DNA of 64,000 nt from Porphyrobacter sp. SLTP (GTDB lineage: Bacteria; Pseudomonadota; Alphaproteobacteria; Sphingomonadales; Sphingomonadaceae), in assembly GCF_009905735.1 (NCBI RefSeq), contig NZ_JAAALE010000006.1:62001-126000 (forward strand), written 5' to 3'. The notes under the pieces are model-generated. The model ran no database searches. It was given only the letters and a program-made list of their open reading frames with translations, and was not told the origin of the DNA. Shown piece after piece: positions 21,504 to 59,435 of the stretch. The position numbers and the translations under genes were made by a program. Within the stretch, counting starts at the first letter, position 1; each line of letters opens with the position of its first letter.

Positions 21504-23576
21504 TCATTCGGCAGCGATTGCGAAGGCGTCGTCGGCGTCCGCCTGTTCGGCATCATCCGCGAGGAAATCGGGCAGGTCGGCGATTTCAGCTTCATCTGCT
21601 TCGATCACCGGCAACCGCAGGGGTTCCGGCAACCAACCGGTGCCGCTCAGCAGCCGTTCGGCCTCGCGTGCCATGTCACCCTTCTTGAGATGTTCGATCA
21701 GGATTGCGGTCGCATCGCCCTTCGCTTCGCGGACCGCTTCAATAATCCGGGGTTTGGTCACCCGCCCGAGGTAGTTGTCGACTGTTGGCGTCCAGCCAGC
21801 CTCGGCCATGTCGAGCCCGACGACTGCTGCCAGAGCATCGGCGGCGGCAATGCGCTGCGCCACACCGTGCGCTGAGATGCGTCCGTCATAGCCCTTGCTC
21901 GGCTCAAACAGCGCGTTGACGCCGTGACTGACACAGTGGGCGAGCAGCGCCATCTGTTCATCCTGCGGCATTGCGGCGAGGGCGTCCCACAGCGCCTGTG
22001 GTTCATCCGGCAGCCTTTCACCCCAATGTTCGTGCCGCGCCTGGATCGACTGGCTCCAGACACTCTCGCGCAAGTTCGGTGCGACATTGCCGAGCCAGGC
22101 CTGGGTGACGCCGATCTGCACACAACCATGAGTCCCGTGGGGACGGAACACCGACAGGACGAGCGCATGGAGAAGGGCGAGGAAAGCCGCCTGCGGAGCG
22201 TTGGCCAGTGCATCGCGCAGAGCGAGCGTGCGTTCAGCAGTGAGTTCGGAAACGAGCCTGTCAGGTAGCGGTTTGATCGCCTCGTCTTCGTCGTCGTCAC
22301 CGCCGGTCTGCGCCGCTTGCCCTGCCACGGTGACAGTCGGGCCATCGGACACGTCTGCGTTGGCATCGTGCGCACTGTCATTCTGGCCATCAGCGAGGGG
22401 TTCATCTTCAGGACGGACATAGCCGCGGTCGATCCGCAGGCGACCATCATGGGTCAGCGAAATGAACACGCCGGCGCGCGCCATGTCGTCTGGATCGTAA
22501 ACCGTGGGACGACTGTTCAGGGCGGTCAGTTCGGCATCGATTGCGGTCAGCCGCGCATCGACTTCGCCGGGAAGGTCGCTGCCATCGCCGTATTCGTCGC
22601 CAATGCGGTCATATTCCTCGACCAGCACATCGCGCCGTGCCTGCTCGTCGTCGGTCAACGGAACGGTCGTGCCGACGATCCGGCGTTTGCCGCGCTCGCA
22701 TCCATAGGGCAGGTCTATGGCGGCCTCGACCCATTTCCAGCCTTCGGCACCGATTTCCTGTGCGAGTTCCGAGAGCTTTTCGCTCACCAGCAATTCGACC
22801 AATGCGGGATCCTGCAACCATCCATCCTCGTCCGACGAAAACAGATCGCGCATCACATAGCCGCCAGCCTCGGTGTAGGCGTCAATGCCGATGAACCGGA
22901 CGCGGCGGTCGCTTGCGGAGATCGCGTCTTCGGTCAGCAAGCGGCGGATGTGGTAAGCCGGCACATGGTGCCCCTGATTGACCTGTTCCCAGACCTGCTC
23001 CTGGCGCGCGTGGTTGTCGGTGACCGAGAAGGCCATGAGCTGTTCGAGCGTAATGCCGTCCTCACCATAGATTTCGAGCAGGGTGGGCGAGACCGAGGCA
23101 AGCCGTAGGCGCTGGCGTACAGTCGACACCGATACAAAGAACCGCGCGGCGATGTCTTCCTCGGACAGGCCCGCTTCGATCAGCGCGCTGAAGGCACGGA
23201 ACTGATCGAGCGGATGCAGCGCAACGCGCATGACGTTTTCGGCGAGCGAGTCCTCTTCGGCGATCCCGGCTTCGCGCACGACGCAAGGGACCGGTTGATC
23301 CTTTGCCATCCGCTTGGTCTTCACCAGCAGTTCGAGGGCCCGGAAACGGCGGCCACCGGCCGGCACCTCGAACATGCCGGTTTCCTTGCCGTCGGCATCG
23401 AGCACGGGGCGGACGTTGATGCTCTGGAGCAGGGTCCGGCGGTAAATGTCCTCGGCCAGATCCTCGATCGAAAGGCCGGCCTTTACGCGGCGGACATTCT
23501 TCTGGCTCAGCACCAGCTGCGAAAACGGGATGTCGCGCGAGGCGCTAAGCACGAGCTTGGGCAATGTCTTGGTCAT
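21504..23576 (-). CDS. ParB/RepB/Spo0J-family nuclease-domain protein
   Basis: About 690 residues from ATG at 23576 (GGAGA upstream). The N-terminal ParB domain is clear: LSQKNVRRVKAGLSIEDLAEDI, FEVPAGGRRFRALELL, PCVVREAG and AEEDSLAENVMRVALHPLDQFRAF, then a helix-turn-helix (EEDIAARFFVSVSTVRQRLRLASV). The remaining ~450 residues are specific to this element-borne group, which is much longer than chromosomal ParB (about 300). No parA partner is present in the window, so a role in DNA maintenance or regulation rather than simple segregation is likely. It carries a structured leader like that of DUF932. Confidence 0.9.
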   Translation of the reverse strand: MTKTLPKLVLSASRDIPFSQLVLSQKNVRRVKAGLSIEDLAEDIYRRTLLQSINVRPVLDADGKETGMFEVPAGGRRFRALELLVKTKRMAKDQPVPCVVREAGIAEEDSLAENVMRVALHPLDQFRAFSALIEAGLSEEDIAARFFVSVSTVRQRLRLASVSPTLLEIYGEDGITLEQLMAFSVTDNHARQEQVWEQVNQGHHVPAYHIRRLLTEDAISASDRRVRFIGIDAYTEAGGYVMRDLFSSDEDGWLQDPALVELLVSEKLSELAQEIGAEGWKWVEAAIDLPYGCERGKRRIVGTTVPLTDDEQARRDVLVEEYDRIGDEYGDGSDLPGEVDARLTAIDAELTALNSRPTVYDPDDMARAGVFISLTHDGRLRIDRGYVRPEDEPLADGQNDSAHDANADVSDGPTVTVAGQAAQTGGDDDEDEAIKPLPDRLVSELTAERTLALRDALANAPQAAFLALLHALVLSVFRPHGTHGCVQIGVTQAWLGNVAPNLRESVWSQSIQARHEHWGERLPDEPQALWDALAAMPQDEQMALLAHCVSHGVNALFEPSKGYDGRISAHGVAQRIAAADALAAVVGLDMAEAGWTPTVDNYLGRVTKPRIIEAVREAKGDATAILIEHLKKGDMAREAERLLSGTGWLPEPLRLPVIEADEAEIADLPDFLADDAEQADADDAFAIAAE

Positions 23577-23660
23577 GGGGTTTCTCCATGACGGGCTGCC
23601 CGAAAGACTCTCTCTCAGGCTCGAACCCGTCACGAAGCGAAGCGCCGCCCTCTCACTCTG
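23577..23660 (-). ncRNA. Structured 5' leader of parB (copy 1 of a twin motif)
   Basis: In transcript orientation the leader has GAGTGAGAG, a CTTCG segment, CGTGACGGG, a GAGAGAGAG purine tract, then CCCGTCATGGAGA and the parB start. TGACGGG (23632-23626) pairs with CCCGTCA (23595-23589). An out-of-frame ATG lies 13 nt before the true start. The same blocks in the same order occur before DUF932 (24900-24981), so selection on the leader is likely. It could be a protein- or RNA-binding control element. Confidence 0.55.
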
Positions 23661-23705
23661 AGAAGGCAGCGCAACGCAAGAGTAACACGCTGGGCCCGGG
23701 GAGGC

Positions 23706-24899
23706 TTAGTGCAACCGGTCGAGCAACTTCTTGGCCTTGCCCTCCATGTCGAGCCGGGCGTCCTGATGGGCCTTGGACCGCGCCAATGCGGTGATGCCCT
23801 GCACGAAATCAAAGATCGATTCCGGCGGGCGGCCTTCCTCGGCGAGGACGGTCTCGATGATCCGGCCGGTTTCAGCCTTGGAGAATCCGCGCGCCCGGAG
23901 GAAATCCTGCCGGTCTTCGTCGCTACGGGCGACAATTCGCTCCCGCGCGGTCTTGATGCCGTTGATGAACGGCTGCGCCGACGAATTGGCAAAGTTCAGC
24001 AGCGCCGGCTCAGCTTCGTGGGCAAAGCGGTTCGCGGCATATTTGCTGTGGCGGATGCTGATCTCCTCGAAGTCCTCCACCCCCCACAGGTTGCGGTTCT
24101 GGCAGACCGCGCGCAGGTAGAAGCTCGCCATGCCGAGCGTCTTTGCGCCAACCTCGGAGTTCCAGCAGTAGAACCCGCGGAAGTAGAGATCGGGCGATCC
24201 GTCGGGCAGCCGCCCGGCTTCGATCGGGTTGAGATCATCGACCAGAAACAGGAATACGTCGCGATCCGACGCATAGAGCGTGGTCGTCTCCTTCGAGATG
24301 TCGACGTTAGGGTTGTAGACCCCGCTCGACCAGTCGAGCACGCCCGGAACCTTCCAGCGTGTGTCGCCGGTGCCGTTGCCAGCGATCTTCTGCACCGCTT
24401 CGACAAGCTCATGGTCGTAGATCCGGCCGTAGTCGGGGCCTGTCACTGCGCGCAGTTCGAGGCGGCCATTGTTGGTTTCGAGCGTCTTGATCTGCTCGGC
24501 TCGGTTGGAGGTCAGCCCGTATTGCAGATTGATCGCGGCGAGCGGCGCCGGAAGTTGGCGCAGATAGGCAGCAGGAGCGCCTACCTGGCTGGCCAATTGC
24601 CCAAAGCTCCAGTGAGTTGGCGTCACCGGTGCCTCGGCACCCGGCAACATGAGAGTCAGGCGTTCCGGATCATTGCGGTTTGCTTCGACATGGATCAGCG
24701 CCGTCTCGACCACGCGCGTCCGGCTCCGGTCAGACCGACCGCGCACTGATCGGGCCAGATCGCCCAGTGACAAAAACCTCTCGTCATCTGGGCGCGAGAA
24801 CCACTCCGACGACACCCGACCCACGCGCGAGCCGCGCGAGACATCGACCTTGTAACCGCCGCTTGAGTCGCGGCGCGTATCGAGAACCTGCATATCCAT
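23706..24899 (-). CDS. DUF932 family protein
   Basis: About 397 residues from ATG at 24899 (GGAGATTTACC upstream). The domain is recognised from FLSLGDLARSVRGR near the N-terminus, THWSFGQLASQVGAPAAYLRQLP, VYNPNVDISKETTTLYASDRDVFLFLVDD, and FYCWNSEVGAKTLGMASFYLRAVCQNR. DUF932 proteins are phage/plasmid-borne relatives of LGT-type proteins with unknown biochemical role. It lies between parB and the att site, and is preceded by a leader nearly identical in layout to that of parB. Confidence 0.9.
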   Translation of the reverse strand: MDMQVLDTRRDSSGGYKVDVSRGSRVGRVSSEWFSRPDDERFLSLGDLARSVRGRSDRSRTRVVETALIHVEANRNDPERLTLMLPGAEAPVTPTHWSFGQLASQVGAPAAYLRQLPAPLAAINLQYGLTSNRAEQIKTLETNNGRLELRAVTGPDYGRIYDHELVEAVQKIAGNGTGDTRWKVPGVLDWSSGVYNPNVDISKETTTLYASDRDVFLFLVDDLNPIEAGRLPDGSPDLYFRGFYCWNSEVGAKTLGMASFYLRAVCQNRNLWGVEDFEEISIRHSKYAANRFAHEAEPALLNFANSSAQPFINGIKTARERIVARSDEDRQDFLRARGFSKAETGRIIETVLAEEGRPPESIFDFVQGITALARSKAHQDARLDMEGKAKKLLDRLH

Positions 24900-24981
24900 G
24901 GTAAATCTCCATGACGGCTGGCCGGGAGCCTCTCTCTCGACCCTCATCCCGTCACGGCGAAGCCCGCCAGACTCTCACTCT
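24900..24981 (-). ncRNA. Structured 5' leader of the DUF932 gene (copy 2 of a twin motif)
   Basis: Transcript order is GAGAGTGAGAG, GGGCTTCGC, CGTGACGGG, TCGAGAGAGAGG, CCGGCCAGCCGTCATGGAGA, then the start codon. CGTGACGG (24949-24954 part) pairs with CCGTCA (24917-24912). Blocks and spacing match the parB leader, including an out-of-frame ATG 13 nt before the start. No gene was found in the remaining stretch to the att repeats (24982-25341), apart from a short hairpin CAGGGC-N5-GCCCTG at 25187-25203. Confidence 0.55.
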
Positions 24982-25364
24982 CCCCCCTCAACGCTTAAAA
25001 CCGCGCGAGCGGCCAGCGAGATCGCCAAAGTAAGAAACTGCACCCTGAACGAGGCGGAGCATCGCGTCATCGCTCGCGCAGGCGGAAAGCCGGGGCCTGT
25101 CGGCTTTCCTGGCTTGCGCTTTGGGCCATGTCCGCCGGATCAGAGTGCGTGCGGGGCCCCATGCGTCAGACACCGCGCCCTCAGGAGCAGGGCAGGCAGC
25201 CCTGCGGGACAGAGCGCGTCAGCAGCCCCACTCCTCGTTTCGGGGCGTTGCGGGGTGTCCCCGCTGAGGTGGGTGTGAAGAAGCCGCGCAGCGGCTTCGA
25301 CCAGGGAGGAAACGTCCTCCCGCACATCGAAAATCAAGCCTCTACGCCATGCTACGAAACACGT

Positions 25365-25386
25365 TGATTACGTGGCGATTACGTGG
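25365..25386 (+). repeat. Left copy of a 22-bp direct repeat flanking the att core
   Basis: This 22-mer beginning TGATTACGTGGC is exactly repeated at 25609-25630, on the other side of the tRNA fragment. It is itself made of two GATTACGTGG units. A related motif, CTACGCCA, also occurs on both sides (25342, 25521, 25585). Paired direct repeats on either side of a core are what is expected of integrase arm-type sites. Confidence 0.7.
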
Positions 25387-25441
25387 CTCTCGACAGCCCC
25401 TTGGGAGGGGTGTATATTCGCACCTAAGCCGTTGAGAAGTT

Positions 25442-25486
25442 TGGTGGACGCACTTGGGCTCGAACCAAGGACCCGCTGATTAAGAG
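25442..25486 (-). other. att core: 3' part of a tRNA-Lys(CTT) gene
   Basis: Read on the minus strand, 45 bases match the 3' part of a tRNA: anticodon loop CTCTTAA (anticodon CTT, Lys), TCAGC of the anticodon stem, T-arm CTTGG-TTCGAGC-CCAAG, acceptor strand TGCGTCC, then A and an encoded CCA. The 5' half of a tRNA does not follow; the sequence breaks off after the anticodon loop. This is the duplicated target of a tRNA-specific integrase, consistent with attP or an element end. Confidence 0.82.
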
Positions 25487-25608
25487 CGGAGCTTTGTGCC
25501 CTTTTCGTTCCTTTCCAATACTACGCCAAACTACGCTCAAGGGCTTGAAACGGTTGGAATAAATCCGCCGTGGATTACCCTTCGCTACGCCATCGTAATC
25601 CCGACATC

Positions 25609-25630
25609 TGATTACGTGGCGATTACGTGG
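25609..25630 (+). repeat. Right copy of the 22-bp direct repeat, at the integrase start
   Basis: Identical to 25365-25386. It lies 15 bp before the preferred integrase ATG (25645) and covers an alternative GTG start at 25627, so integrase binding here could also repress its own gene. Confidence 0.7.
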
Positions 25631-32107: not shown

Positions 32108-33307
32108 ATGACGATTGACCGAAAAATGCTGGCCCTGATCGGCGGGGCCGCGATCATTGCCCTTGTAGGTGGCGGCGCGGGCTATGTGCTGCGCGGCGAC
32201 GCTGCACAGAGTGATGAAGCTGCTAAAGGCGCTGAGTCTGGCGGCGATGCGGAGGCCGAGGTGGCGCCAGGGGAAGGCACCATCATGGTGACCGAAGCGC
32301 AGCTGCGCACAGCAGGGATCGTGGTTGCGGCAGTCGGAGAAGGCTTTGCCGGGGGCGAAGTGACAACGGCGGGCGTGCTCGTGCCGCCGACACAGTCGGT
32401 CGGTCATGTCACCGCACGCACGTCGGGCGTTGTCGTGCGGATCTTGCGCCAGCTCGGCGACCGGGTCGCGGTAGGTGATGCGCTCGCTGTCATTGACAGC
32501 CGCGAGGTTGCCGAGGCGCAGGGCGCATCGGCACGCGCACGGCGCGCAGCCGAAGCCGCACGCACTGTTCTTGCGCGAGAGGAAAGTCTGTTCCGCCAAC
32601 GTGTCACGGCACGTCAGGAATATGAAGCAGCGCAAGCCGCCTACGATGCGGCGCGAATTGATGCGCAGCAAGCCGAGCAAGCCTTGCGTGCGCTGGGTGC
32701 AGGGACGGGAGGAGGCACCACCCGGCTGATGACGCTGCGTTCGCCGGTTGCGGGTGAGGTTACTTCGGTGACCGTTACGCCGGGTGAATATGTTCCGCCC
32801 GAGCGCGAGCTGTTTCAGGTTGCCGATCCGCGCACGGTCTGGGCGGAATTGATGATCCCTGCGCGCGATATCCAGCGCGTTCGGGTCGGCCAGACGATGA
32901 TGCTTTCTGTTCAGGGTAGCGATCACCCGCACACGGGCCGTATCCGGTTCCTCTCTCCCGCTGTTGATCCGGCCACCGGGGCGGCCAAGGCGATCGCCAC
33001 CATCGACAATCGCGATGGCGACCTTCGTGTCGGCCAGAATGTCAGTGCGCGGGTCACGACGCCCGGGAGCGATGGCCAGCGGGTGCCAGTGGTGCCGCGC
33101 AGCGCGATCCAGGAGGTTGAGGGGCGCAGTGTTGTTTTCGTGCGCACGCCGCGCGGCTTTGTCGTGCGGCCGGTGACGGTGGGCACTGGCAGCGATTCCG
33201 CCGTGCCGATCATCTCGGGTCTGCGCGTCGGCGAACGCGTCGCGACCGTCAATGCCTTCGTCCTCAAAGCGGAACTCGGCAAGGCCGAGGCCGAACATGA
33301 TCATTGA
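32108..33307 (+). CDS. czcB: RND efflux periplasmic adaptor (membrane fusion protein)
   Basis: 399 residues. An N-terminal membrane segment (LALIGGAAIIALVGGGAGYVL) precedes an acidic linker, then a lipoyl/hairpin adaptor: VGHVTARTSGVVVRILRQLGDRVAVGDALAVI, a coiled-coil region (about 145-210), LRSPVAGEVTSVTVTPGEYVPPE and the beta-barrel. The terminal EAEHDH tail could bind metal. It ends 11 bp before czcA. Confidence 0.93.
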   Translation: MTIDRKMLALIGGAAIIALVGGGAGYVLRGDAAQSDEAAKGAESGGDAEAEVAPGEGTIMVTEAQLRTAGIVVAAVGEGFAGGEVTTAGVLVPPTQSVGHVTARTSGVVVRILRQLGDRVAVGDALAVIDSREVAEAQGASARARRAAEAARTVLAREESLFRQRVTARQEYEAAQAAYDAARIDAQQAEQALRALGAGTGGGTTRLMTLRSPVAGEVTSVTVTPGEYVPPERELFQVADPRTVWAELMIPARDIQRVRVGQTMMLSVQGSDHPHTGRIRFLSPAVDPATGAAKAIATIDNRDGDLRVGQNVSARVTTPGSDGQRVPVVPRSAIQEVEGRSVVFVRTPRGFVVRPVTVGTGSDSAVPIISGLRVGERVATVNAFVLKAELGKAEAEHDH

Positions 33308-33318
33308 GAGGACGAACC

Positions 33319-36300
33319 ATGATTGAAAAAATCCTCGCCTTCGCCGTCGAGCGAAGGGTGCTGGTGGTCCTCCTGACCGCGTTTGCCGCCATTTATGGTG
33401 CGACCCAGCTTGTACAACTGCCTGTCGATGCGGTGCCCGACATCACCAACCGGCAGGTGCAGATCAACGCCGTTGCGCCCTCGCTCGGGCCGACGGAAAT
33501 GGAACGCCAAGTCAGCTATCCTATTGAAACTGCCATGGCGGGCATGCCCGGCCTCGTTGAAACCCGCTCGATTTCGCGCAACGGGTTTGCGCAGGTCACG
33601 GTGATCTTCACCGATGATACCGATCTCTATTTCGCCCGCCAGCAAGTAGGTGAGCGCTTGACGCAGGCGGCGGGCACGTTGCCGCCGGGGGTGGATCCAC
33701 AGATCGGACCGGTATCTACCGGCCTTGGCGAAGTGCTGATGTGGACGGTCGACTTCGCGCATCCCGACGGGCGCGGGGCTCCGCGCGCGCGGGCCGGGCA
33801 GCCGGGCTGGCAAACTGACGGCAGCTATCTTACTCCTGAGGGACAGCGGCTGACGACGCCGGAAGAGCGGCTGACCTACCTGCGTACGGTCCAGGACTGG
33901 ATCATTCGGCCACAGATGCGTCAGGTTGCCAATGTCGCAGGGGTCGACGCCATCGGCGGTTTCGTGAAGCAATATGAAGTCGCACCTGATCCGGTGCGGC
34001 TCGCCGCCGCCGGTCTTTCGATGACCGATCTCGTCGACGCGCTCGAACGTGGCAATGTGTCGAGCGGTGCCGGCGTGGTCGAGCGCAGCGGGGAAGGACT
34101 GGTGGTTCGCGCCGATGCCCGGGTGTCACGCGGGTCTGAGATTGCCAATATCGTGATTGCCCAGCGGGGCGGGGCGCCGGTGCGGGTCATTGATGTGGCG
34201 ACCATTTCGTCGGGTCGCGAGGTCCGCACGGGTGCAGCCAGCGTCAATGGTCATGGCGCTGTGGTTGGCACCGCCCTGATGCTTGCAGGTGGCAACAGCC
34301 GCACGGTGGCGGCCGAATCCGCCGAGAAGCTCGATGAGATCGGCGCGGCCCTCCCGCCCGGTATTGTCGTGACGCCGGTGCTTGATCGTTCGGTGCTGGT
34401 TGATGCGACGATCAGCACGGTGGCCAAGAACCTGACCGAGGGCGCGCTCCTTGTTATTGTCGTCCTGTTTCTGCTGCTCGGCAATTTCCGCGCTGCCATC
34501 ATCACGGCGCTGGTGATCCCGCTGTCGATGCTGCTGGCGGCAATCGGGATGGTCAAAGGGGGTGTTTCAGGCAATCTGATGAGTCTCGGCGCGCTCGATT
34601 TCGGTCTGATTGTCGATGGTGCGGTCATCATCGTTGAAAATTGCCTGCGCCGTCTGGCCGAGCGTCAGCATCATGAAGACAGGTTGCTCAGTTTGCAGGA
34701 GCGGCTTCACGAAGTGATGGTTGCGGCGCGCGAGATGATCCGCCCATCGGTGTTCGGTCAGGCCATCATTATCCTGGTGTATCTGCCGCTGCTCGCGTTC
34801 GACGGGGTGGAAGGCAAGATGTTCGCGCCGATGGCGATCACCGTGATGCTGGCACTGACCGCAGCCTTTGTCCTCTCGCTGACCTTCGTACCAGCGATGG
34901 TGGCGCTGCTCGTGACTGGCAAGGTCGAGGAGAAGGAGCCGCGCGTGCTGGCGGCAACGCGGAGCCGTTATGAGCCATTGCTCGACAAGGCGCTTGCCCG
35001 GCCATGGGTGGCCATCGGCTCGGGAGCGGCGATTTTCCTTGTCGCGCTCGTCGCTTTCACCAGCCTTGGTCGCGAGTTCATTCCCCAGCTCGACGAGAAG
35101 AATTTCGCGCTCCACGCGATGCGGATCCCGTCGACGAGTGTCGAGCAATCGGCCTCAATGCAGTTGCAGGTTGAGCGGGTGATTGCTGGCTTTCCGGAGG
35201 TCGCGACGGTCTTTTCAAAGACGGGCACGGCGGAAGTGGCGACTGACCCGATGCCCGGCAATGTGTCCGACACTTTCGTGATCCTGCACCCACGAGAGGA
35301 GTGGACCGATCCGTCCGAAACAAAGGCCGCGCTGATTGCCCGGGTGGAAGCCCGGCTGAACACGCTGCTCGGCAACAATTATGAGTTGAGCCAGCCTATC
35401 CAGATGCGCTTTAACGAGCTGATTTCGGGCGTTCGATCCGATGTAGCGGTCAAGGTCTATGGCGATGATTTTGAAACACTCAATGCCACGGCGCAGCGCG
35501 TTGCAGCTGCGCTGCGCGCGGTCGACGGTGCTTCGGATGTCAAGGTTGAGCAGACCGAAGGATTGCCGGCGCTTGTGATCGATTTCGACCGGGCAGCGAT
35601 TGCAGCCTATGGTCTGTCGGTTGGCGACGTGACTGATGTGGTGCAGATCGCGCTCGGCGGCCGCGAGGCCGGGCTGGTGTTCGAAGGCGATCGGCGGTTT
35701 GATGTCGTGGTGCGCCTGCCCGAAGAGCAGCGGCGCGATCTCGATGCGCTTGCGGCCTTACCAGTTGCATTGCCATCGGCAGATGGCACGGCGCGGTCCG
35801 TGCAGCTTGGCCAGCTCGTTCGCTTCCGCATTGAAAACGGACCCAACCAGGTCAGCCGCGAAAACGGCAAGCGTCGGGTTGTTGTGCAGGCTAATGTGCG
35901 CGGGCGGGACTTGGGCTCGTTCGTTGCCGATGCGCAAGCCGCGGTCGCCAATGATGTGCAGATTCCTCCGGGTCTGTGGATCGACTGGGGCGGCCAGTTC
36001 GAGAATCTCGAACGTGCGCAAAATCGCCTCAGTATTGTGGTGCCACTTGTCTTCGCGGCGATCTTCGCCTTGCTTTACGCAGCGCTGGGGTCGGCAAGCC
36101 GTGCGGCGATGGTCTTCTCCGCCGTCCCGCTCGCGCTGAGCGGGGGCGTGCTGCTGCTATGGCTGCGTGGCATGCCCTTTTCGGTCTCTGCAGCGGTTGG
36201 CTTCATCGCTCTGTCGGGCGTGGCAGTGCTCAATGGGCTGGTCATGATGTCGAGCATCCTTGCGCTGCGTCAGAACGGCAAGGGCGTGCTGGAATCGGTG

Positions 36301-36561
36301 CGCGAAGGGGCGCTGATGCGTTTGCGACCCGTGCTGATGACGGCATTGGTGGCCAGTCTTGGTTTCGTGCCGATGGCGCTGGCGAGCGGCACAGGTGCGG
36401 AAGTGCAGCGACCGATCGCGACGGTGGTGATCGGCGGATTGATCTCGGCGACCTTGCTGACCTTGGTCGTCCTGCCGGCGCTGGCCCGGCTTGTGCTTGA
36501 CCGGGAAGCCAGGCGCTTTCCGGACGAAGAGCCTCAGCCGCTTTCGCCCGTGATGGCTTAG
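33319..36561 (+). CDS. czcA: HME-family RND heavy-metal efflux pump
   Basis: 1080 residues, the normal length. Start at 33319 has GAGAGGACG upstream. It begins MIEKILAFAVERRVLVVLL, typical of CusA/CzcA inner-membrane proton antiporters, with two large periplasmic loops and about twelve membrane helices. The TM4 signature LDFGLIVDGAVIIVEN (from residue 426) contains the two Asp of the Zn/Co-type group (DFG...D), and favours a CzcA-like rather than CusA-like pump. It is the third gene of the czcCBA operon. Confidence 0.95.
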   Translation: MIEKILAFAVERRVLVVLLTAFAAIYGATQLVQLPVDAVPDITNRQVQINAVAPSLGPTEMERQVSYPIETAMAGMPGLVETRSISRNGFAQVTVIFTDDTDLYFARQQVGERLTQAAGTLPPGVDPQIGPVSTGLGEVLMWTVDFAHPDGRGAPRARAGQPGWQTDGSYLTPEGQRLTTPEERLTYLRTVQDWIIRPQMRQVANVAGVDAIGGFVKQYEVAPDPVRLAAAGLSMTDLVDALERGNVSSGAGVVERSGEGLVVRADARVSRGSEIANIVIAQRGGAPVRVIDVATISSGREVRTGAASVNGHGAVVGTALMLAGGNSRTVAAESAEKLDEIGAALPPGIVVTPVLDRSVLVDATISTVAKNLTEGALLVIVVLFLLLGNFRAAIITALVIPLSMLLAAIGMVKGGVSGNLMSLGALDFGLIVDGAVIIVENCLRRLAERQHHEDRLLSLQERLHEVMVAAREMIRPSVFGQAIIILVYLPLLAFDGVEGKMFAPMAITVMLALTAAFVLSLTFVPAMVALLVTGKVEEKEPRVLAATRSRYEPLLDKALARPWVAIGSGAAIFLVALVAFTSLGREFIPQLDEKNFALHAMRIPSTSVEQSASMQLQVERVIAGFPEVATVFSKTGTAEVATDPMPGNVSDTFVILHPREEWTDPSETKAALIARVEARLNTLLGNNYELSQPIQMRFNELISGVRSDVAVKVYGDDFETLNATAQRVAAALRAVDGASDVKVEQTEGLPALVIDFDRAAIAAYGLSVGDVTDVVQIALGGREAGLVFEGDRRFDVVVRLPEEQRRDLDALAALPVALPSADGTARSVQLGQLVRFRIENGPNQVSRENGKRRVVVQANVRGRDLGSFVADAQAAVANDVQIPPGLWIDWGGQFENLERAQNRLSIVVPLVFAAIFALLYAALGSASRAAMVFSAVPLALSGGVLLLWLRGMPFSVSAAVGFIALSGVAVLNGLVMMSSILALRQNGKGVLESVREGALMRLRPVLMTALVASLGFVPMALASGTGAEVQRPIATVVIGGLISATLLTLVVLPALARLVLDREARRFPDEEPQPLSPVMA

Positions 36562-36674
36562 ACGAATGACCAAGAAAATAGACCAAAGCTCAGGAGAGAC
36601 GCAATGAACAGCAGCGGTAAGCGAAGTGCATCGGCTCTTGGCGGCCCTTGCAATGGCTCCTTGGTGGCAAGCTG

Positions 36675-37595
36675 ATGGGCGCGGGTCATGATCATGGCAA
36701 TGCCGGTCACCAGGGCCATAGCCATGGCGCTGGTGCCAGCACCCGGCGCCTTGCCATTGCGCTCGGACTGACGACGACCTTCCTGATCGCCGAGTTGGTC
36801 GGGGCCTTTGTCTTTGACAGCCTGGCGCTGCTTTCTGACGCTGCGCATATGTTTACTGACAGTGCGGCGCTGGCGATTGCGCTGGCGGCGGTCAAGATCG
36901 GTCAGCGTCCGCCCGATGATCAGCGTACCTTCGGCTATCGGCGATTCGAGATATTGGCTGCTGCCTTCAACGCGATCCTGCTGTTTGCGGTCGCCGGATA
37001 CATTCTGATCGAGGGGATTGGGCGGTTCTTTGCACCGCAGCCCGTTGAATCGGTCGGGATGCTGATTGTCGCAACGCTCGGGTTGCTCGTGAACCTTATT
37101 GCCATGCGGATCCTTGCTGGTGGCAAGGACGACAGCCTCAATATCAAGGGGGCGTATCTCGAGGTGTGGGCTGACATGCTCGGCTCGCTTGGCGTCATTG
37201 GTGCGGCCATTGCAATCTATTTCACCGGCCTCAACTGGATCGACCCGATCGTCGCGATCGCGATCGGTCTCTGGGTGCTGCCGCGCACGTGGATATTGCT
37301 GCGCGACACCATGCATATCCTCCTACAAGGCGTGCCGCGTGGGTTTGACCTCAAAGCCATCCGCACGGCGATGGCCGAGATGCAGGGCGTGAACGGGGTT
37401 CACGACCTGCATCTGTGGTCGGTCGCGGGCGACGACGCTAGCCTGACCGCGCATGTTGCGATTGATGGCGGGGAGGATGCAGAAGTAGTGCGGCGTGATG
37501 TGGCAGACATGCTGGCAGCGCAGTTCGCGATCCATCACGTCACAATCCAGACAGAAACTGTTCCATGCACCGATGAGACGGTATTGCATCGCTAA
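36675..37595 (+). CDS. czcD: CzcD-type cation diffusion facilitator
   Basis: 306 residues from ATG 36675. The N-terminus is His-rich (GHDHGNAGHQGHSHGAG), as in CzcD/ZitB. The family motif SLALLSDAAHMFTDSAALAIAL (His and Asp of the metal site) and EVWADMLGSLGVI in TM5 are present. The cytoplasmic C-terminal domain (GVNGVHDLHLWSV) is intact. It follows czcA by 113 bp and likely exports Zn, Co or Cd. It converges on the glutaredoxin-MauE gene, leaving 16 bp between. Confidence 0.95.
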   Translation: MGAGHDHGNAGHQGHSHGAGASTRRLAIALGLTTTFLIAELVGAFVFDSLALLSDAAHMFTDSAALAIALAAVKIGQRPPDDQRTFGYRRFEILAAAFNAILLFAVAGYILIEGIGRFFAPQPVESVGMLIVATLGLLVNLIAMRILAGGKDDSLNIKGAYLEVWADMLGSLGVIGAAIAIYFTGLNWIDPIVAIAIGLWVLPRTWILLRDTMHILLQGVPRGFDLKAIRTAMAEMQGVNGVHDLHLWSVAGDDASLTAHVAIDGGEDAEVVRRDVADMLAAQFAIHHVTIQTETVPCTDETVLHR

Positions 37596-37611
37596 ATTGG
37601 CGATTTCCACC

Positions 37612-38349
37612 CTACGTCATCATCCACACTGCCATGCCGATCATCATTAGGTTTTCTGTCAATGAGACAAAGCCCAGCGGCACATTGCTGTCACCGCCGA
37701 CGCAGGCGCATTTGAGTTCGCGCTTGTCGATATAGACTGCCTTGAAGACCGAGATGGCACCGATTGTGCCGATGAACAGCGCCACCGGTATCGAGAGCCA
37801 ATGCAGCTGGCCGGAAACCATCAGCACGCCGGCCAAGCCCTCGGCGAAGGGATAGAGGGTCGCATAAGGCACCCAGCGCTTTGCCAACAGGTCGTAATTG
37901 AGGAACATCGTTGCGAACTTGTCGACATTCTGGAGCTTGAGCAGCGCCAGCACGCACATGCTGAAGGCAATAAACCACTCCGCAACGCGAACGCTCAGAG
38001 CCGTGCCATCGACCGCGATGCCAGCTGCCATCGCCATCGCTGCGGTCATGGCGAAGAGCGCGATTATCGGGCGGTAGCTGGTCGCATTGGGATCGGGGAC
38101 CTTGATCCCGAAGTATCGCCGCAGGTCGTCATGCCCTCCAATACGCTCACCGTCGATGAAGGTCTGAGGTGTGGTTGCAACCCCGTGTTCAGCCTTGAAC
38201 GCGTCGGTCTGTTCGCGCGTGGTGAGATGCCGATCATCGACCTTGTAGCCGCGCGTTTCGAGCAGATGCTTGGATTTCAGGCCATAAGGGCAGGTGTGAT
38301 TGGGCATGACCATGCGGTGGAGCACCGCGGTTTTGGTGGGTGAGGGCAT
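37612..38349 (-). CDS. Glutaredoxin domain fused to MauE/DoxX-like membrane domain
   Basis: About 245 residues from ATG 38349. Residues ~9-80 form a glutaredoxin with a single-Cys site (HTCPYGLKSK), then TTPQTFIDGERIGGHDDL. The rest is a MauE-like membrane domain with four or five segments. A Cys-x-Cys (LKCACVGGD) lies near the C-terminus. A MerR-type divergent promoter (38384-38414) drives it. Such fusions often sit in metal- and thiol-stress loci; reduction of a membrane or periplasmic target is inferred. Confidence 0.85.
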   Translation of the reverse strand: MPSPTKTAVLHRMVMPNHTCPYGLKSKHLLETRGYKVDDRHLTTREQTDAFKAEHGVATTPQTFIDGERIGGHDDLRRYFGIKVPDPNATSYRPIIALFAMTAAMAMAAGIAVDGTALSVRVAEWFIAFSMCVLALLKLQNVDKFATMFLNYDLLAKRWVPYATLYPFAEGLAGVLMVSGQLHWLSIPVALFIGTIGAISVFKAVYIDKRELKCACVGGDSNVPLGFVSLTENLMMIGMAVWMMT

Positions 38350-38383
38350 TGGTGAATTCCTTTGAATCGATGCAATACCACCC

Positions 38384-38414
38384 ATATAAGTTCCGTACCA
38401 TGGTACGGGATCAA
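38384..38414 (-). promoter_or_regulatory. MerR-type promoter and operator for the glutaredoxin-MauE gene
   Basis: On the minus strand TTGATC (38414-38409) and TTATAT (38389-38384) have a 19-bp spacer containing the perfect palindrome CCGTACCATGGTACGG (38393-38408). This is the MerR arrangement, next to a divergent merR-like gene. Confidence 0.83.
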
Positions 38415-38422
38415 GGCTCAAA

Positions 38423-38830
38423 ATGAAAATCGGTGAGTTTGCCCGCGCAGGCGGGGTCAATGTCGAGACGATCCGCTATTATCAGCGGCGCGGATTGCTG
38501 GCGCAGCCTGCGCGGCATGAGGGGCCACGCCGCTATACGCGCATCGATCTTGGCCGTTTGCAATCGATCCGCTCGGCGCAGATTGCGGGCTTCACGCTTG
38601 ACGAGATCGCGACCCTTCTTGCTCTCGATACGGGCGATCGCACAGCGGCGCAGAATCTGGCACGCGTTAGGATCGCGGCTCTCGATGAGAAAATCGCGAC
38701 GTTGCAAACCATGCGGGGAGCCCTCGTCAGGCTCGCCGATAACTGTGCGTCGGAACAATCCGGACCCTGTCCCATCATCGATGCTTTCAGCTTTGCGCAA
38801 GAAAATGCAGGATCGAAGGTGGCAACATGA
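38423..38830 (+). CDS. MerR-family regulator (HMRTR-like)
   Basis: 135 residues. The winged helix MKIGEFARAGGVNVETIRYYQRRGLL and long dimer helix are typical; the metal-binding end has DNCASEQSGPCPIID, a Cys pair as in mercury-type MerR. No merA, merT or merP is in the window, so the inducer may be another thiophilic metal. The gene sits divergent to the glutaredoxin-MauE gene and shares its operator. Confidence 0.9.
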   Translation: MKIGEFARAGGVNVETIRYYQRRGLLAQPARHEGPRRYTRIDLGRLQSIRSAQIAGFTLDEIATLLALDTGDRTAAQNLARVRIAALDEKIATLQTMRGALVRLADNCASEQSGPCPIIDAFSFAQENAGSKVAT

Positions 38831-38876
38831 GGGGTTTTTGCCGCGCCCGCGTATACTACGTCGAAGGAGCTTCTTG

Positions 38877-39134
38877 ATGGACCTCGACACAAATCTCGCC
38901 CGACTGGCTAGGCTTCCCGTTCCGGATCTTTCCGCCCTTGACGGCGGAAGGCTGGCGGCCCGCGCGCAGAACGAGGTGCGGCAGACGCGGGCGATGCTCG
39001 GATTGGGGCTTGTGATGTCGCTTGGGATAGGGGTCGTCGGCGGGCTCCAAGTGCCGGCACGCGCCGAGGTGCCCCTGGCTGCCTTCGGTCCGCCTTCTTC
39101 GCTTACGCCCTTGATTGCACTGGGTCAGGAATGA
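38877..39134 (+). CDS. CnrY-like anti-sigma candidate (single-pass membrane protein)
   Basis: 85 residues, ATG 38877 with GAAGGAGCTTCTTG upstream. A cytoplasmic N-terminal part (about 1-38) is followed by one membrane segment (MLGLGLVMSLGIGVVGGL) and a short outside tail. It overlaps the next gene by 4 bp. Position and topology resemble CnrY/NccY, which hold the CnrH sigma factor at the membrane. Sequence identity to CnrY was not checked, so the call rests on context. Confidence 0.6.
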   Translation: MDLDTNLARLARLPVPDLSALDGGRLAARAQNEVRQTRAMLGLGLVMSLGIGVVGGLQVPARAEVPLAAFGPPSSLTPLIALGQE

Positions 39135-39568
39135 ACCTCCGTCGTATCGCCTTGGCGGCAGGCCTGATCATTGCGCTCGCGCTGGTCGGGGTGTGGCTTG
39201 GGCGCATGCTTCAACCCGCACCGCACCATGGTGGGGCTGAACTCCATGCCTTGATTCATGGTGAGCTCGACCTTGATCCGGCCCAGGAACAAGAACTGAC
39301 CGCACTGGAGCGCCAGTTTGCTGCGCGGCGCGAGGCGCTGGAAGACCGGCTCAGGCGAAGCAATGCACTCCTCGGCGACGCCATCGCCGCCGAACATGAA
39401 TATGGTCCCCGCGTTTCTGCGGCGGTGGACGATACGCATGATGCTATGGGGGATCTCCAGAAGGCGACGCTCGAGCATGTTTTCGCGATGCGGGCCATTC
39501 TTCGTCCCGATCAACAGGCGCGGTTCGATGCGGTGGTTAGCAAGAGCCTCGCTACACAGCCGCAGTGA
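39131..39568 (+). CDS. Periplasmic heavy-metal sensor (CnrX-like)
   Basis: 145 residues. The N-terminal membrane anchor (IALAAGLIIALALVGVWLG) is followed by a soluble helical domain with HHGGAELHALIHGELDLDPAQEQELTALERQF and HDAMGDLQKATLEHVFAMRAIL, characteristic of the Metal_resist/CnrX group; the His residues are the likely ligands. It ends in a GTGA overlap with the sigma factor gene. It would sense metal and release the sigma factor. Confidence 0.82.
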   Translation: MNLRRIALAAGLIIALALVGVWLGRMLQPAPHHGGAELHALIHGELDLDPAQEQELTALERQFAARREALEDRLRRSNALLGDAIAAEHEYGPRVSAAVDDTHDAMGDLQKATLEHVFAMRAILRPDQQARFDAVVSKSLATQPQ

Positions 39569-40137
39569 CCTCAGACAATCTGGATGTGGCGCTTATACGC
39601 GACGCGCGGGCTGGCCTGTCGGGCGCGCAACGTGCTCTCGTCGAGCGCTACCGTGAGACCGTGTACCGGCTTGCGCGCTCCGCGACGGGTGATCCTGAGG
39701 AAGCCTTCGATATCGCGCAGGAAACGTTCGTCGCGGCATTTGCTGCGCTGAACCGTTATGATCCCGAGCGACCTTTCAAGGCATGGATCAGCGCCATCAC
39801 GCTCAACAAATGCCGGGACTGGGCTCGTCGCCGCGCGGTCAGGCGGTTTATCGGTCTGCCGATGCCCGAGCACACGGCGGACTGGATTGCTGATGATGCG
39901 CCTTCGGCGGAAACACTTGCTGCAGACCGCGCCGAGCTTGCCGCCACCGCCCGTGCGATCGCCGAGCTTCCAGCCATGCTGAAAGAGGTGTTGATTCTGT
40001 GCACGGTTGAGGGCCTGAGCCAGCAGGAGGCAGCAATGACGCTGGGCATCAGTGTCAAGGCGGTCGAGACGCGGCTTTCTCGCGCGCGTCAAAAATTGGT
40101 GGGCATTGTGAGGGGTAGCACGGACGCGCGCGTATAG
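39565..40137 (+). CDS. ECF-type RNA polymerase sigma factor (CnrH-like)
   Basis: 190 residues starting with GTG, overlapping the sensor stop. Region 2 (VYRLARSATGDPEEAFDIAQETFVAAFAAL, RPFKAWISAITLNKCRDWARR) and region 4 (LPAMLKEVLILCTVEGLSQQEAAMTLGISVKAVETRLSRARQKL) are clear. With its two upstream partners it makes a CnrYXH-like module. copA begins 7 bp downstream, so metal sensing probably drives the copper operon as well as its own genes. Confidence 0.9.
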   Translation: MTSDNLDVALIRDARAGLSGAQRALVERYRETVYRLARSATGDPEEAFDIAQETFVAAFAALNRYDPERPFKAWISAITLNKCRDWARRRAVRRFIGLPMPEHTADWIADDAPSAETLAADRAELAATARAIAELPAMLKEVLILCTVEGLSQQEAAMTLGISVKAVETRLSRARQKLVGIVRGSTDARV

Positions 40138-40143
40138 AAGCGT

Positions 40144-42006
40144 ATGAACAGTCCGAACCTTACACGACGTCACCTCATCGCCGCCCTTGGTGCGGGATCA
40201 GCCTTCGCTGCCATGCCGGCCTGGGCGCAGGGTCACAGCGTCCACCGCAGCGGCAGCCATGGGCGCGGCGGCCCGCGTATTCCTGCAGGCTTTGGCGAGC
40301 TATCAGGCGATGTCATCGACCTGACCGTTGGCAGCGGCCACCGCATTGTCGAAGGGCGGCGCGGCCCGGGCATTGCCGTCAATGGCAGTGTCCCCGGCCC
40401 GCTGATCCGGCTGCGCGAAGGGCAGAATGTCCGCCTGAATGTCACCAATAACCTGGAGACCGACACATCGGTCCACTGGCACGGCTTCCTTGTGCCGTTC
40501 CACATGGATGGGGTGCCCGGCATCAGCTTTCCCGGTATCAAACCGGGCCAGACCTTCACCTACGAGTTCCCCATCCGCCAGTCGGGCACCTATTGGTATC
40601 ACAGCCATTCGGGTCTGCAGGAGCAATCCGGCCATTACGGCCCAATGATCATTGATCCGGCAGGGGCCGAGCCGGTGCAGTTTGATCGCGATTACATCCT
40701 GCTGCTGAGTGACTTCACCGTGCTCGACCCGCATTTCATCATGAGTCGGTTGCGCACAGGCGAAGGCTATTTCAACCGGCAGCTGAGCACTTGGACCGAC
40801 CGATATCCGATGTCGGGCGAAGAACGGCGGATGTGGGCCGAAATGCGGATGATGCCGACCGATATCATGGATATTGGCGCGCCGACCTACACCTTCCTCG
40901 CCAACGGGCGCGGCCCGTCCGAGGGGATGGAATATCTGTTCCGCGCCGGAGAACGCGTGCGGCTGCGCATCATCAACGGATCGGCGCAGAGCTTCTTCAA
41001 TGTTCGCATTCCGGGCCTGCCAATGACGGTCATCGCTGCCGATGGCCAGAACGTGCGACCGGTCGAGGTTGATGAGTTCCAGATCGGCACTGCCGAGATC
41101 TACGATGTGATCATTACGCCGGGCAGCGACGAAGCCTATGCCATCGTGGCTGAGTCCATGGATCGTTCCGGCATGGCGCTGGCGATGCTGGCCAGTCGCC
41201 CCGGCGCGCGCGCTACGGTTCCGGCCTTGCGCGATCCGCCGCTGCTGACGATGGGCGATATGGGCATGAACCATGGTGCCGGTGGGATGGACCACGGCAT
41301 GATGGATCACGGCGTGCATGCTGGCAGCGCTGCCGACGCTGCGGGAGCGGCGGATCATGCCGCCATGGGGCATGGTACAACCGCAGCGCCGGGTGACGAC
41401 GCGATGGACGGGATGGCGATGGGCGGAATGAGCATGGACGGCATGATGATGCGAGACACCACGCTGCTGCCGCCTGACGTTGCGATTGGTCCGGGGATCG
41501 ACATGGTGTCGATGGCACCGACGGACAAAATGGGCGATCCCGGCCTCGGCCTGCGCGATATGCCGCACCGCGTGCTCAACTATCGGATGCTCACCGCGCT
41601 TGAGCCCAATCGGGACCCGCGCGAGCCATCGCGATTGCTCGAACTCCACCTCACCGGCAATATGGAACGCTACATGTGGTCGTTCGATGGACGGATGTAT
41701 TCTGCCGTCAGCGATGTGCCGATCCGCTTTGCCTGGAACGAGCGGGTGCGGGTGAAGCTCATCAACAACACCATGATGGCGCACCCCATCCATCTGCACG
41801 GCATGTTCTTCGAGCTGGTTAACGGGGAAAGCGCTGCACATCAGCCGCGCAAGAACGTTGTGATCGTGCAGCCCGGCGCCAGCGCGCAATTTGATCTCAC
41901 CGCCAACGAGCCGGGCGACTGGGCGTTCCACTGCCACCTGATGTATCACATGCATGGCGGGATGATGCAGACCGTGACCGTGGTCGGTCCGGGCGACGGA
42001 GCATGA
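40144..42006 (+). CDS. copA: Multicopper oxidase, copper resistance protein CopA
   Basis: 620 residues with a Tat-type signal peptide (TRRHLIAALGAGSAFA). All copper ligands are visible: HWHG, WYHSHSG, HPIHLHGMFFEL and HCHLMYHMHGGM. A Met/His-rich insert lies around residues 370-440 (MNHGAGGMDHGMMDHG, MDGMAMGGMSMDGMMM), typical of CopA/PcoA. It oxidises Cu(I) in the periplasm. It overlaps copB by 4 bp. Confidence 0.95.
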   Translation: MNSPNLTRRHLIAALGAGSAFAAMPAWAQGHSVHRSGSHGRGGPRIPAGFGELSGDVIDLTVGSGHRIVEGRRGPGIAVNGSVPGPLIRLREGQNVRLNVTNNLETDTSVHWHGFLVPFHMDGVPGISFPGIKPGQTFTYEFPIRQSGTYWYHSHSGLQEQSGHYGPMIIDPAGAEPVQFDRDYILLLSDFTVLDPHFIMSRLRTGEGYFNRQLSTWTDRYPMSGEERRMWAEMRMMPTDIMDIGAPTYTFLANGRGPSEGMEYLFRAGERVRLRIINGSAQSFFNVRIPGLPMTVIAADGQNVRPVEVDEFQIGTAEIYDVIITPGSDEAYAIVAESMDRSGMALAMLASRPGARATVPALRDPPLLTMGDMGMNHGAGGMDHGMMDHGVHAGSAADAAGAADHAAMGHGTTAAPGDDAMDGMAMGGMSMDGMMMRDTTLLPPDVAIGPGIDMVSMAPTDKMGDPGLGLRDMPHRVLNYRMLTALEPNRDPREPSRLLELHLTGNMERYMWSFDGRMYSAVSDVPIRFAWNERVRVKLINNTMMAHPIHLHGMFFELVNGESAAHQPRKNVVIVQPGASAQFDLTANEPGDWAFHCHLMYHMHGGMMQTVTVVGPGDGA

Positions 42007-57476: not shown

Positions 57477-59435
57477 TCAGCTTCGCATTGGCCAATCGAG
57501 CGGTATCAATGCTTTGCCCGAACTGCGCGTCCAGCGCTCGCGGGTAGCGGCCACATAGCGTACATCGTCTTCAAAATAGGCATGCTCGATCAAAAGTACT
57601 TGAAGCCCATGTTGACGCTCAACTTCCTTGAAAAGGAAATCTATGTGGCGACGCATCGCCATGATATCTTCATCCTCCTCGCCGCCAGATATGGCCTTTT
57701 CATCTTCATCCGCTGATTGGGCCGGAAAGTAGGGACGGCTTATCTGGTCGAGTACGAGGATACCGGGCACCGGTGCATCCACCTCACCGAAGTAACGTTG
57801 TAGTCCGAAAGCGAGTGCAATGTGGATAGCGAGATAATTCTGATCCGACCCCACGTCTGGCATTCGCAGCATCGTGCCTTTACCGTCGCCTTCAATTACT
57901 CGGACTTCAGGTTCTTTCGACGAAAAATAGAGCTCCGAACCAACACAGGGTGCTACGGTGGGAAGGAAAGCAAGCGCCTCCGACGCGTACTGTGAAATTT
58001 TGCTCTCCGCGCGCTTTAGGCGGATATCTCTGCTCTCACGATCGACCCGTGCCTCCAACTGAATGATCTCATCTCGAAGCACCGCCAGATCAGGGCCCAG
58101 CTGTTTCGGTTCTTCTGCGCTGGTCTGCAAAAAGAAGGCAATTTTTCCCTGCAGATGTGCTCGCGCCTGTGCGACGCTGGCAAGACGCCGGGTCTCATCA
58201 GTCTGACGAAGCCAACTCGTGATCTTCTCATCCGTCTCTCGCAGATCCCGGTTGAGGCGATTGATTTCGGAGGTCAGAGTGTCGTCAAGCTCGACAAGCT
58301 GGGGGCGGACACGCTCTACAGCGATGCTTTCATCTCGAACCTTGGCCAATGTACGTGCAAGCGCTGCAGCGGTCTCGTGTCCGCGCTCGGATGGGGCATC
58401 ACAGAGCGGACAGAGATGCGCAGCTTCGCCGAGCTTCAAATGTTCTGCAAGATTCAGCTTGTTTCGCTGCCGGGTGACGGCTCCTTGAAAACCCGAGGCA
58501 TCTGCAAGCGCCAAACGCGCAGCCTGGCGCTTCCGCCTAGCGGCCGTGAGACCGGCCAATATCTCCTTTCTGGTAGCATGGAGGTAACCAATCTCCCCCT
58601 CACTTGGGTAACTGGTGGGATCATCTTCGGTCTCGGCGATCGCCTTCAACTGCACAAGCAGTTCGCCTTCGTCCGCATCGCTGTTTGGTTGGTCCGCGAG
58701 TGAAAAGCGATGTGCTTCGTTGATTAGTCCGACGGCGCGCTGCTTCAGTGCCGTCTCAGCCGCCCGTCGGCTGCGCTCTCGGCCTTCCTCTACTGCAAGC
58801 GCGCGCCGAATCTGACGGAGCTTGCGTTCCGCCATTGCGCTTTCTTCATCCGTCGCCCGCAAGAAATATGGCATGGTTGCGACGATGTCTTTGGCCTTGT
58901 CGGGCTGCTCCATGCCATGCAGGAGCACTGTCTCGCTATCGATCACTTCTTTGGTAACGAACAGATAGGGCGTGACGTGGCGAACGCTAGTTCGGCCCTT
59001 TGTCTCGCCAGCGTCGTCCGGCAAATGGCTCAAGTCGCCAATGCCGAAAGCTCTCTGAATGAAGCTCTTTGCCGCATCGAGCGTGGTGGCGCCGTCGAAG
59101 TCGTCGAGGCTGGTCGGGAGGAGTAGGTTCTTTCCTGCCGTCGCGAACATTCGTGTGCTGGTCGCTTGGCCATCGGGTGGGATAAGCCGACCGACGATCA
59201 TTTCCTCCTCGCCTGTCACCCATTTCACGCCCACCGCAATCGCGTGCCGCCGAATATGGACCGGTAATTCGCATTTGCTTGAGCCAAGACAGTAGTCGAT
59301 CGCCTTGATCAGTGCTGATTTTCCGGTCCCTGATGCGCCGGTAATGATGTTGACCGCGCCAGGGATGAATGAGATCTCCTGCCGACGCCCCGACATTCCG
59401 AGGAAAAACACATTGGCGATGTTCCAGCGGGTCAT
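57477..59435 (-). CDS. ABC-3C system ATPase, Rad50/SMC-like (DUF3732) with zinc hook
   Basis: 652 residues from ATG 59435, which overlaps the middle-component stop (ATGA). Walker A is GASGTGKSA (33-41), a central coiled coil surrounds a zinc-hook motif CPLC (342-345), the signature-like VGSDQNYLAIH is near 528-538, and Walker B GILVLDQ is near 558-564. The C-terminal half has FLFKEVERQHGLQVLLIEHAYF. The family is the DUF3732 ATPase of ABC-three-component systems, thought to detect or bind nucleic acid. It is last in the cluster. Confidence 0.9.
   Translation of the reverse strand: MTRWNIANVFFLGMSGRRQEISFIPGAVNIITGASGTGKSALIKAIDYCLGSSKCELPVHIRRHAIAVGVKWVTGEEEMIVGRLIPPDGQATSTRMFATAGKNLLLPTSLDDFDGATTLDAAKSFIQRAFGIGDLSHLPDDAGETKGRTSVRHVTPYLFVTKEVIDSETVLLHGMEQPDKAKDIVATMPYFLRATDEESAMAERKLRQIRRALAVEEGRERSRRAAETALKQRAVGLINEAHRFSLADQPNSDADEGELLVQLKAIAETEDDPTSYPSEGEIGYLHATRKEILAGLTAARRKRQAARLALADASGFQGAVTRQRNKLNLAEHLKLGEAAHLCPLCDAPSERGHETAAALARTLAKVRDESIAVERVRPQLVELDDTLTSEINRLNRDLRETDEKITSWLRQTDETRRLASVAQARAHLQGKIAFFLQTSAEEPKQLGPDLAVLRDEIIQLEARVDRESRDIRLKRAESKISQYASEALAFLPTVAPCVGSELYFSSKEPEVRVIEGDGKGTMLRMPDVGSDQNYLAIHIALAFGLQRYFGEVDAPVPGILVLDQISRPYFPAQSADEDEKAISGGEEDEDIMAMRRHIDFLFKEVERQHGLQVLLIEHAYFEDDVRYVAATRERWTRSSGKALIPLDWPMRS

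Follow-up and report, generated by a model that had tools for sequence, protein, structure and literature searches.

Structured RNAs lying before radC and antirestriction-type genes are represented in the proteobacteria by the radC RNA motif (RF01754). This motif, which has a table row in the survey PMC2864571, is described by a 149-position model, against about 97 positions in the leaders described here. The STAXI motif (RF01728), which the text devoted to it in the same survey places near ssb, integrase and antirestriction genes, is likewise comparable in its surroundings but consists of repeated pseudoknots. As switches of establishment genes, the literature passages used for comparison describe repressors of transcription, promoters active in ssDNA, and EGeRS1, whose mode of action is unexplained. 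The Frpo/ssi ssDNA promoters, as portrayed in the sections of PMC11541004 that concern them, likewise fold back on themselves ahead of genes of the leading region, anti-defence genes among them; they work as DNA on the template strand, whereas here it is the mRNA-sense strand that folds.

Within these passages, the closest described arrangement is EGeRS1 of the pLS20-family plasmids, a conserved inverted-repeat region found directly before the RBS of several establishment operons of one element, that of ardC among them (PMC8708921, in the part dealing with EGeRS1). No promoter was found in EGeRS1, its mechanism is unexplained, and its authors judged it not to be an ssDNA promoter. Compared by description, it differs in belonging to Bacillus plasmids and in its length, the conserved region upstream of the RBS covering 420-750 bp as against 97 model positions here; in the present case, moreover, single genes own a leader and the Shine-Dalgarno itself lies in the stem.

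Two leaders in the window

The DNA analysed, referred to as the window, is a stretch of 64,000 nucleotides from Porphyrobacter sp. SLTP. It carries a DUF932-like and a parB-like gene, both on the - strand, as are all features in this section, and each is preceded by a leader of about 97 nt reaching the start codon. The DUF932-like gene (23706..24899, start ATG 24897-24899) was recognized by homology to plasmid genes annotated DUF932, from which the name is taken over, and by a PHROG 1362 match; the protein itself has no Pfam or NCBIfam match. The parB-like gene (21504..23576, start ATG 23574-23576) encodes a protein with Sigma70_r4_2 and HTH_ParB above the Pfam cut-off, ParB_N just below it, and a match to PHROG 7783. 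Its leader starts 35 nt past the DUF932 stop.

The DUF932 leader occupies 24895..24992 and gives a 78-bit match to model R1, to whose own alignment both window leaders belong. In it are found the GA-rich conserved upstream motif GAGAGTGAGAG (24972..24982), the 5' arm of a stem, P1, with the sequence CGTGACGGG (24948..24956, from sequence and pair counts), a hairpin, P2, whose 5' arm and loop contain GAGAGAGAG (24920..24942), and the 3' arm of P1, CCGTCATGGAG (24907..24917, from pair counts), which contains the Shine-Dalgarno GGAG at 24907-24910. The parB leader (23572..23670; R1 match 77.6 bits, fold z-score -6.3) has the GA-rich motif AGAGTGAGAG at 23650..23659, within an upstream hairpin of the predicted fold, followed by CGTGACGGG at 23626..23634, P2 with GAGAGAGAG at 23599..23619 (sequence and predicted fold) and CCGTCATGGAG at 23584..23594, the last containing the GGAG at 23584-23587. 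The computed probability that the Shine-Dalgarno is unpaired is 0.005 for parB and 0.27 for DUF932, where it is less hidden. The DUF932 leader folds no better than its shuffles (z -0.01), and P1 is absent from its minimum-energy fold and appears only in the centroid; it is predicted to be the weaker fold of the two.

A preliminary description of this DNA had reported that the two leaders share the order and spacing of their sequence blocks, and this proves to be so: the offsets are nearly identical (GAGTGAGAG 12/12, CTTCG 30/28, CGTGACGGG 36/36, GAGAGAGAG 54/54 and CCGTCATGGAGA 75/76), and the local alignment of the two scores 73, versus a maximum of 31 in 1000 dinucleotide shuffles. When the DUF932 leader was compared with 100-nt windows (step 25, both strands, its own place excluded), scores above 25 were seen only in those overlapping the parB leader. 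CGTGACGG alone is near chance, with 6 matches in the window against 3.7 expected, and GAGAGAGAG alone has 2 against 0.44; CCGTCATGGAGA has five copies in the genome, four of them in the two leaders and their duplicates and the fifth, on contig C8, without the other blocks. It is the combination of blocks, rather than any single one, that chance makes unlikely. R1 finds both window leaders twice each in the genome, because the region is duplicated there; the match ranked after these scores no better than chance would allow (E 0.63).

Conserved structure and compensatory changes

Two covariance models of 97 positions, R1 built from 51 leaders and R2 from 106, were used to widen the set; their E-values are rough, the calibration having been short. 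Comparison of the leaders establishes a common core: AGAGnRAGAG, then P1 (CUUCGUGACGGG/CCCGUCAUGGAG type), which runs from CUUCGUGACGGG to CCCGUCAUGGAG and encloses P2, a seven-pair hairpin whose 5' arm and loop contain GAGAGAG. The complementary arms noticed earlier are present and longer than had been claimed, since the 3' strand of P1 takes in the Shine-Dalgarno GGAG.

Absence of compensatory changes in homologues had been named in advance as a result that would refute the proposed shared target. Two-sided changes were in fact found in 13 of 20 pairs in alignment A3, 17 of 20 in A4 (106 leaders, taken from 54 chosen sources at an E of 1e-6 or less) and 16 of 20 in A6 (62 leaders from 43 best-match loci, best matches first, of genomes sampled by class and phylum and not selected for DUF932), numbers that in each alignment were reached by 0 of 500 shuffles that leave the relatedness of the leaders in place. 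All seven P2 pairs show two-sided changes in A6, where 55 rows are new with respect to A1, A3 and A4 and seven repeat an earlier row exactly. Alignment A1 (51 rows out of 116, at a similarity limit of about 90%), for which the pattern used fixes most of P1, has two-sided changes in 6 of 20 pairs, as many as in 6 of 500 shuffles, and further pair types no more often than the shuffles (19 vs 20.2). Across all four alignments the structure pairs in 94-95% of cells, versus 30-55% for slid versions of it. P1 occurs as GACGAG/CTCGTC, GACGGA/TCCGTC and GTGGCGG/CCGCCAC, and, since these variants differ among genes and lineages, several independent compensatory events are likely. The leaders thereby show what marks a cis-acting mRNA leader that sequesters the Shine-Dalgarno, a compensatory stem that includes it; at the pairs with GGAG itself the variation is mostly one-sided, and the pair at its A has 25 (A4) and 13 (A6) unpaired cells.

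Because of the two-sided changes in A3, A4 and A6, a shared RNA target behind the leaders, as had been suggested, is well supported. The further suggestion that it serves two maintenance genes was too narrow: the target is not limited to two genes, and "maintenance" is not the best term for a set that has ArdC, ArdB/KlcA, a strawberry-notch helicase and RadC.

A longer outer stem around the Shine-Dalgarno (GGAUC/GAUCC type) was seen by eye in some DUF932 leaders and is not general. None of four sites resembling intrinsic terminators in 23500-25500 falls on a leader, and the reading of the leader as such a terminator is thus not supported.

Acting strand and position on the Shine-Dalgarno

If the element were recognized as double-stranded DNA, or on its complement, A-C cells should be as common as G-U cells or commoner. 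The counts are the contrary, G-U cells outnumbering A-C cells by 363 to 27 in A3, 347 to 30 in A4 and 196 to 16 in A6, all three alignments being fitted to models that allow G-U but not A-C pairs, and 22 of the 27 A-C cells of A3 sitting in one P2 pair. In 61 of 62 A6 leaders, moreover, the predicted fold of the mRNA-sense strand is more stable than that of its complement, RNA parameters being used for both strands. As G-U exceeds A-C and the sense strand folds better, the leader evidently acts as RNA, not as a DNA operator or a template-strand promoter.

The arms do form inverted repeats common to several genes, as the operator of a repressor binding double-stranded DNA might, but G-U and A-C mismatches should then be equally frequent, which they are not, and the fixed distance of 7-10 nt to the start codon also speaks against an operator; we regard this as extremely improbable. 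A Frpo-like ssDNA promoter that works on the strand entering the cell was also considered: such promoters drive anti-restriction genes of F and ColIb-P9, among others (PMC8708921, in its remarks on them), and occur in anti-defence leading regions (PMC11541004, in the sections noted above). It would nevertheless require the template (transferred) strand to fold, while the strand asymmetry seen here, with G-U about 12 to 1 over A-C and the complement worse in 61 of 62 leaders, runs the other way; the element ends at the Shine-Dalgarno, and a consensus scan of the window sequence found no sigma-70-like site on the - strand of 23500-25500. This explanation is very unlikely.

A readable GGAG and ATG are present in 163 of 168 leaders, and in all 163 a spacing of 7-10 nt separates the GGAG from the start codon. 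Structure prediction places the conserved fold on this site: in the 161 leaders with enough flank to fold, the median probability of an unpaired Shine-Dalgarno is 0.03. For 166 control ORFs from loci L011-L090, each of 200 aa or more and with GGAG preceding its ATG, the corresponding value is 0.27 (p = 1.5e-15). An out-of-frame ATG 13 nt before each start, noted earlier, is indeed present in both window leaders, and might open a short upstream reading frame, beginning at the ATG of CCGTCATGGAG, that controls the gene. The triplet at this position, however, is ATG in 64 of 163 related leaders and GTG in 8, and these 72 use all three frames (35, 19 and 18). With ATG so infrequent and the frames mixed, it was dropped as a selected feature, and control by such a frame has next to no probability. 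The strand asymmetry and the ATG and frame counts together disfavour the upstream frame, the operator and the ssDNA promoter.

Comparison with known RNA families

Searches with Rfam 15 gave no match at the gathering score in the window, nine loci and five further loci. At E up to 10 on 23200-25300 there were five weak matches, and only that to Streptomyces-metH (17.5 bits against a cut-off of 50, E 4.7) overlaps the parB leader. Twenty of the 43 leader loci, searched with E up to 2, gave four, none at a leader position. The leader family is without a credible Rfam 15 match. The radC motif scored over its 40-bit cut-off in none of 12 records, with 26 weaker matches, none at the listed leader positions, and the STAXI motif, a tandem array of pseudoknot repeats, had no match in the Rfam scans of the window and loci. 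Among the papers listed by the literature searches, none on this leader was seen. ParB, DUF932 and antirestriction were not found mentioned in two ncRNA surveys, and for antirestriction and radC a third (PMC2864571) yielded nothing beyond its text on STAXI and the table row of the radC motif.

Genes and genomes carrying the leader

Comparison also defines the set of genes that carry the leader; in A4 and A6 their names come from resemblance to one of seven reference proteins rather than from a Pfam search of every gene. A readable ORF follows 58 of the 62 A6 leaders (ParB 29, ArdC 16, DUF932 11, a 120-128 aa ORF 2), the remaining four being at the end of a locus. The 106 A4 leaders precede ParB (49), DUF932 (44), ArdC (6), an uncharacterised 182-187 aa protein (4) and RadC (1), the remaining two being unclear. 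A compact conserved structure before the start codon could suggest a riboswitch, a small molecule or ion binding the leader and thereby opening or closing the stem, but the gene set concerns DNA entry rather than a metabolite, and two simple stacked hairpins with short conserved motifs leave little room for a pocket; we think this improbable.

Among the best matches listed, the 80 genome loci L011-L090, which are the closest relatives by design, all have a type I leader upstream of DUF932 and a second leader match downstream of it, and in 79 of them a ParB match begins within 200 nt of the end of the second; L059 has no ParB match on that strand. More distant relatives are often without the leader: R1 has no match in L005 (a relative at 73%), L008, L092, L093 and L094, and three of three Rhizobiaceae plasmid DUF932 genes examined (72-74% identity) lack a type I leader, while L163 and L165 carry it. 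Judging from these relatives, and from the window's own helicase gene, before which no such leader was seen by eye, the leader is not indispensable. R2 matches at least 27 of 385 genomes of the class and at least 32 of 398 of the phylum (even sampling, strict filters; the window's own genome is counted in both samples, which share some genomes), and all 32 of the latter belong to the same class. The family is widespread in the Alphaproteobacteria. Locus L061, labelled Thauera, comes from a metagenome bin and may be misplaced.

Two leaders (L187:1971-2066 and L189:1945-2040) stand before the uncharacterised 120-128 aa ORF, which starts MHDRDYSADIA. The 182-187 aa proteins follow leaders at L148:7950, L149, L150:6924 and L157, with no Pfam match in the two tested; in L148 the gene lies between ParB and a strawberry-notch helicase. 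The Rhizobiaceae DUF932 genes (L160:17992, L161:7992, L164:7968) are preceded by another GC-rich inverted repeat, then a T-rich stretch, then AGGAG. A GC-rich inverted repeat of the type GCGGGG-n-CCCCGCAACGCCCC recurs just upstream of many DUF932 leaders, about 60-110 nt before the DUF932 start in L045, L049, L050, L055 and L058; one resembling it is found at about 25242-25264 of the window, some 250 nt upstream of the DUF932 leader.

A second type of leader

A second leader, type II, has the same GA motifs with a different stem, which ends in CUCUC before the Shine-Dalgarno. Its first copies were weak R1 matches, and the others were found by a pattern requiring the GA motifs. It precedes strawberry-notch helicases (a cluster of 25 proteins, one of them checked with Pfam) and ArdB/KlcA proteins (Pfam Antirestrict in two of two tested), and is found once before an uncharacterised protein (L151) and once before a gene annotated toprim (L164). 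Covariation is weaker here: in alignment A5, for which 44 pattern matches were reduced to 35 non-redundant leaders and then to 34 by omitting that of the toprim gene, two-sided changes occur in 9 of 26 pairs, a number reached by 14 of 500 shuffles.

By eye, the ardB gene beside DUF932 in L160 and L161 has a type II-like leader, and none was seen before the window's own helicase gene. PADLOC weakly matches one strawberry-notch protein (L057:11646-15995) to mads_2, at 39 bits and E 1e-10, but gives no match for the helicase of the window.

Proposed function

On balance, the leaders are probably a translational switch, set by a shared factor, for establishment genes of mobile elements. They would be copies of one cis-acting RNA element placed in the 5' or intercistronic regions of such element-borne genes. 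On the transcript, the Shine-Dalgarno would be taken up by a stem of as many as 13 pairs closed around the second hairpin, and translation would for that reason be low by default. A factor common to all copies, most likely a protein and possibly an antisense RNA, would read AGAGnRAGAG and GAGAGAG and lock or open the stem, setting the translation of ParB, DUF932, ArdC and others together; the proteins would probably be made in a burst as the element enters a new cell. The translational control, the shared trans-acting factor and the timing are what we infer from the conserved structure and gene set.

Hairpins keep translation low in the transposase mRNAs of some insertion sequences, and the leader hairpin might likewise be a passive fail-safe that only holds translation down, for example from read-through transcripts, without a regulating factor. 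The strong pairing of the Shine-Dalgarno agrees with this, as a stable hairpin there could simply mean weak translation; so do the position of the parB leader, 35 nt after the DUF932 stop and in a region where the sigma-70 scan drew a blank on the - strand, and the fact that no factor was found in this analysis. The GA motifs, though, are conserved beyond the needs of pairing. AGAG-n(1-3)-AGAG is present in 48 of the 62 A6 leaders and the second GA-rich motif in 54, versus means of 0.14 and 2.7 after mononucleotide shuffling, as measured on leaders chosen by a model that includes these motifs. They are partly paired, in the arm of P2 and, in parB, in the upstream hairpin as well, and they recur in the type II leader with another stem. 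Both arguments are softened by the choice of leaders with a model or pattern that includes the GA motifs, but a purely passive hairpin still seems rather unlikely.

Several leader-bearing genes are thought to act on incoming DNA, and for this reason a switch in which the common Shine-Dalgarno-hiding leader coordinates their translation, perhaps at entry, is the most likely reading. ArdC of R388 is required in the recipient and not in the donor (PMC7213743, in the part concerning ArdC). A more specific form of the switch, offered tentatively, would be zygotic induction at the RNA level: one RNA-binding factor, encoded by the element or the host, would read the GA motifs of every copy and silence translation of an anti-restriction and establishment regulon in cells that hold the element, and, being absent from a fresh recipient, would allow all the proteins to be made at once on entry. 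A compact shared RNA element before such genes in Alphaproteobacteria would make the gene set definable from sequence alone; the leader could also serve as bait for finding the putative factor, and it marks new candidate entry genes such as those for the 182-187 aa proteins and the MHDRDYSADI ORF.

The host element

The window lies on a contig of 203,926 bases and contains the junction of two tandem units, each 76,442 bases long, at a tRNA-Lys gene. The copies (window 25380-25626 and 1-25486; G000:C32:11000-163928) are identical where compared, over window positions 1-25486 and 60001-64000, and the arrangement may be a real array or a product of assembly. The attachment site is present three times, the last at an intact tRNA-Lys(CTT) gene. 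In the window the right-hand unit opens with an integrase gene (25627), and the final gene detected in the left-hand unit, ahead of its attachment site, is DUF932. With TraG, an RlxS-like relaxase (under its cut-off), TrbB, TrbE, TrbL and an RPA-type replication gene encoded in the window, the unit resembles an integrative and conjugative element that carries genes for metal resistance and defence-like genes as cargo. The metal-resistance cargo (33304-42006, + strand) includes a CusA/CzcA-type efflux pump and a multicopper oxidase, and the defence-like cargo (57477-63125, - strand) a DrmB-family protein, an ABC-three-component CTD7 protein and a DUF3732 protein.
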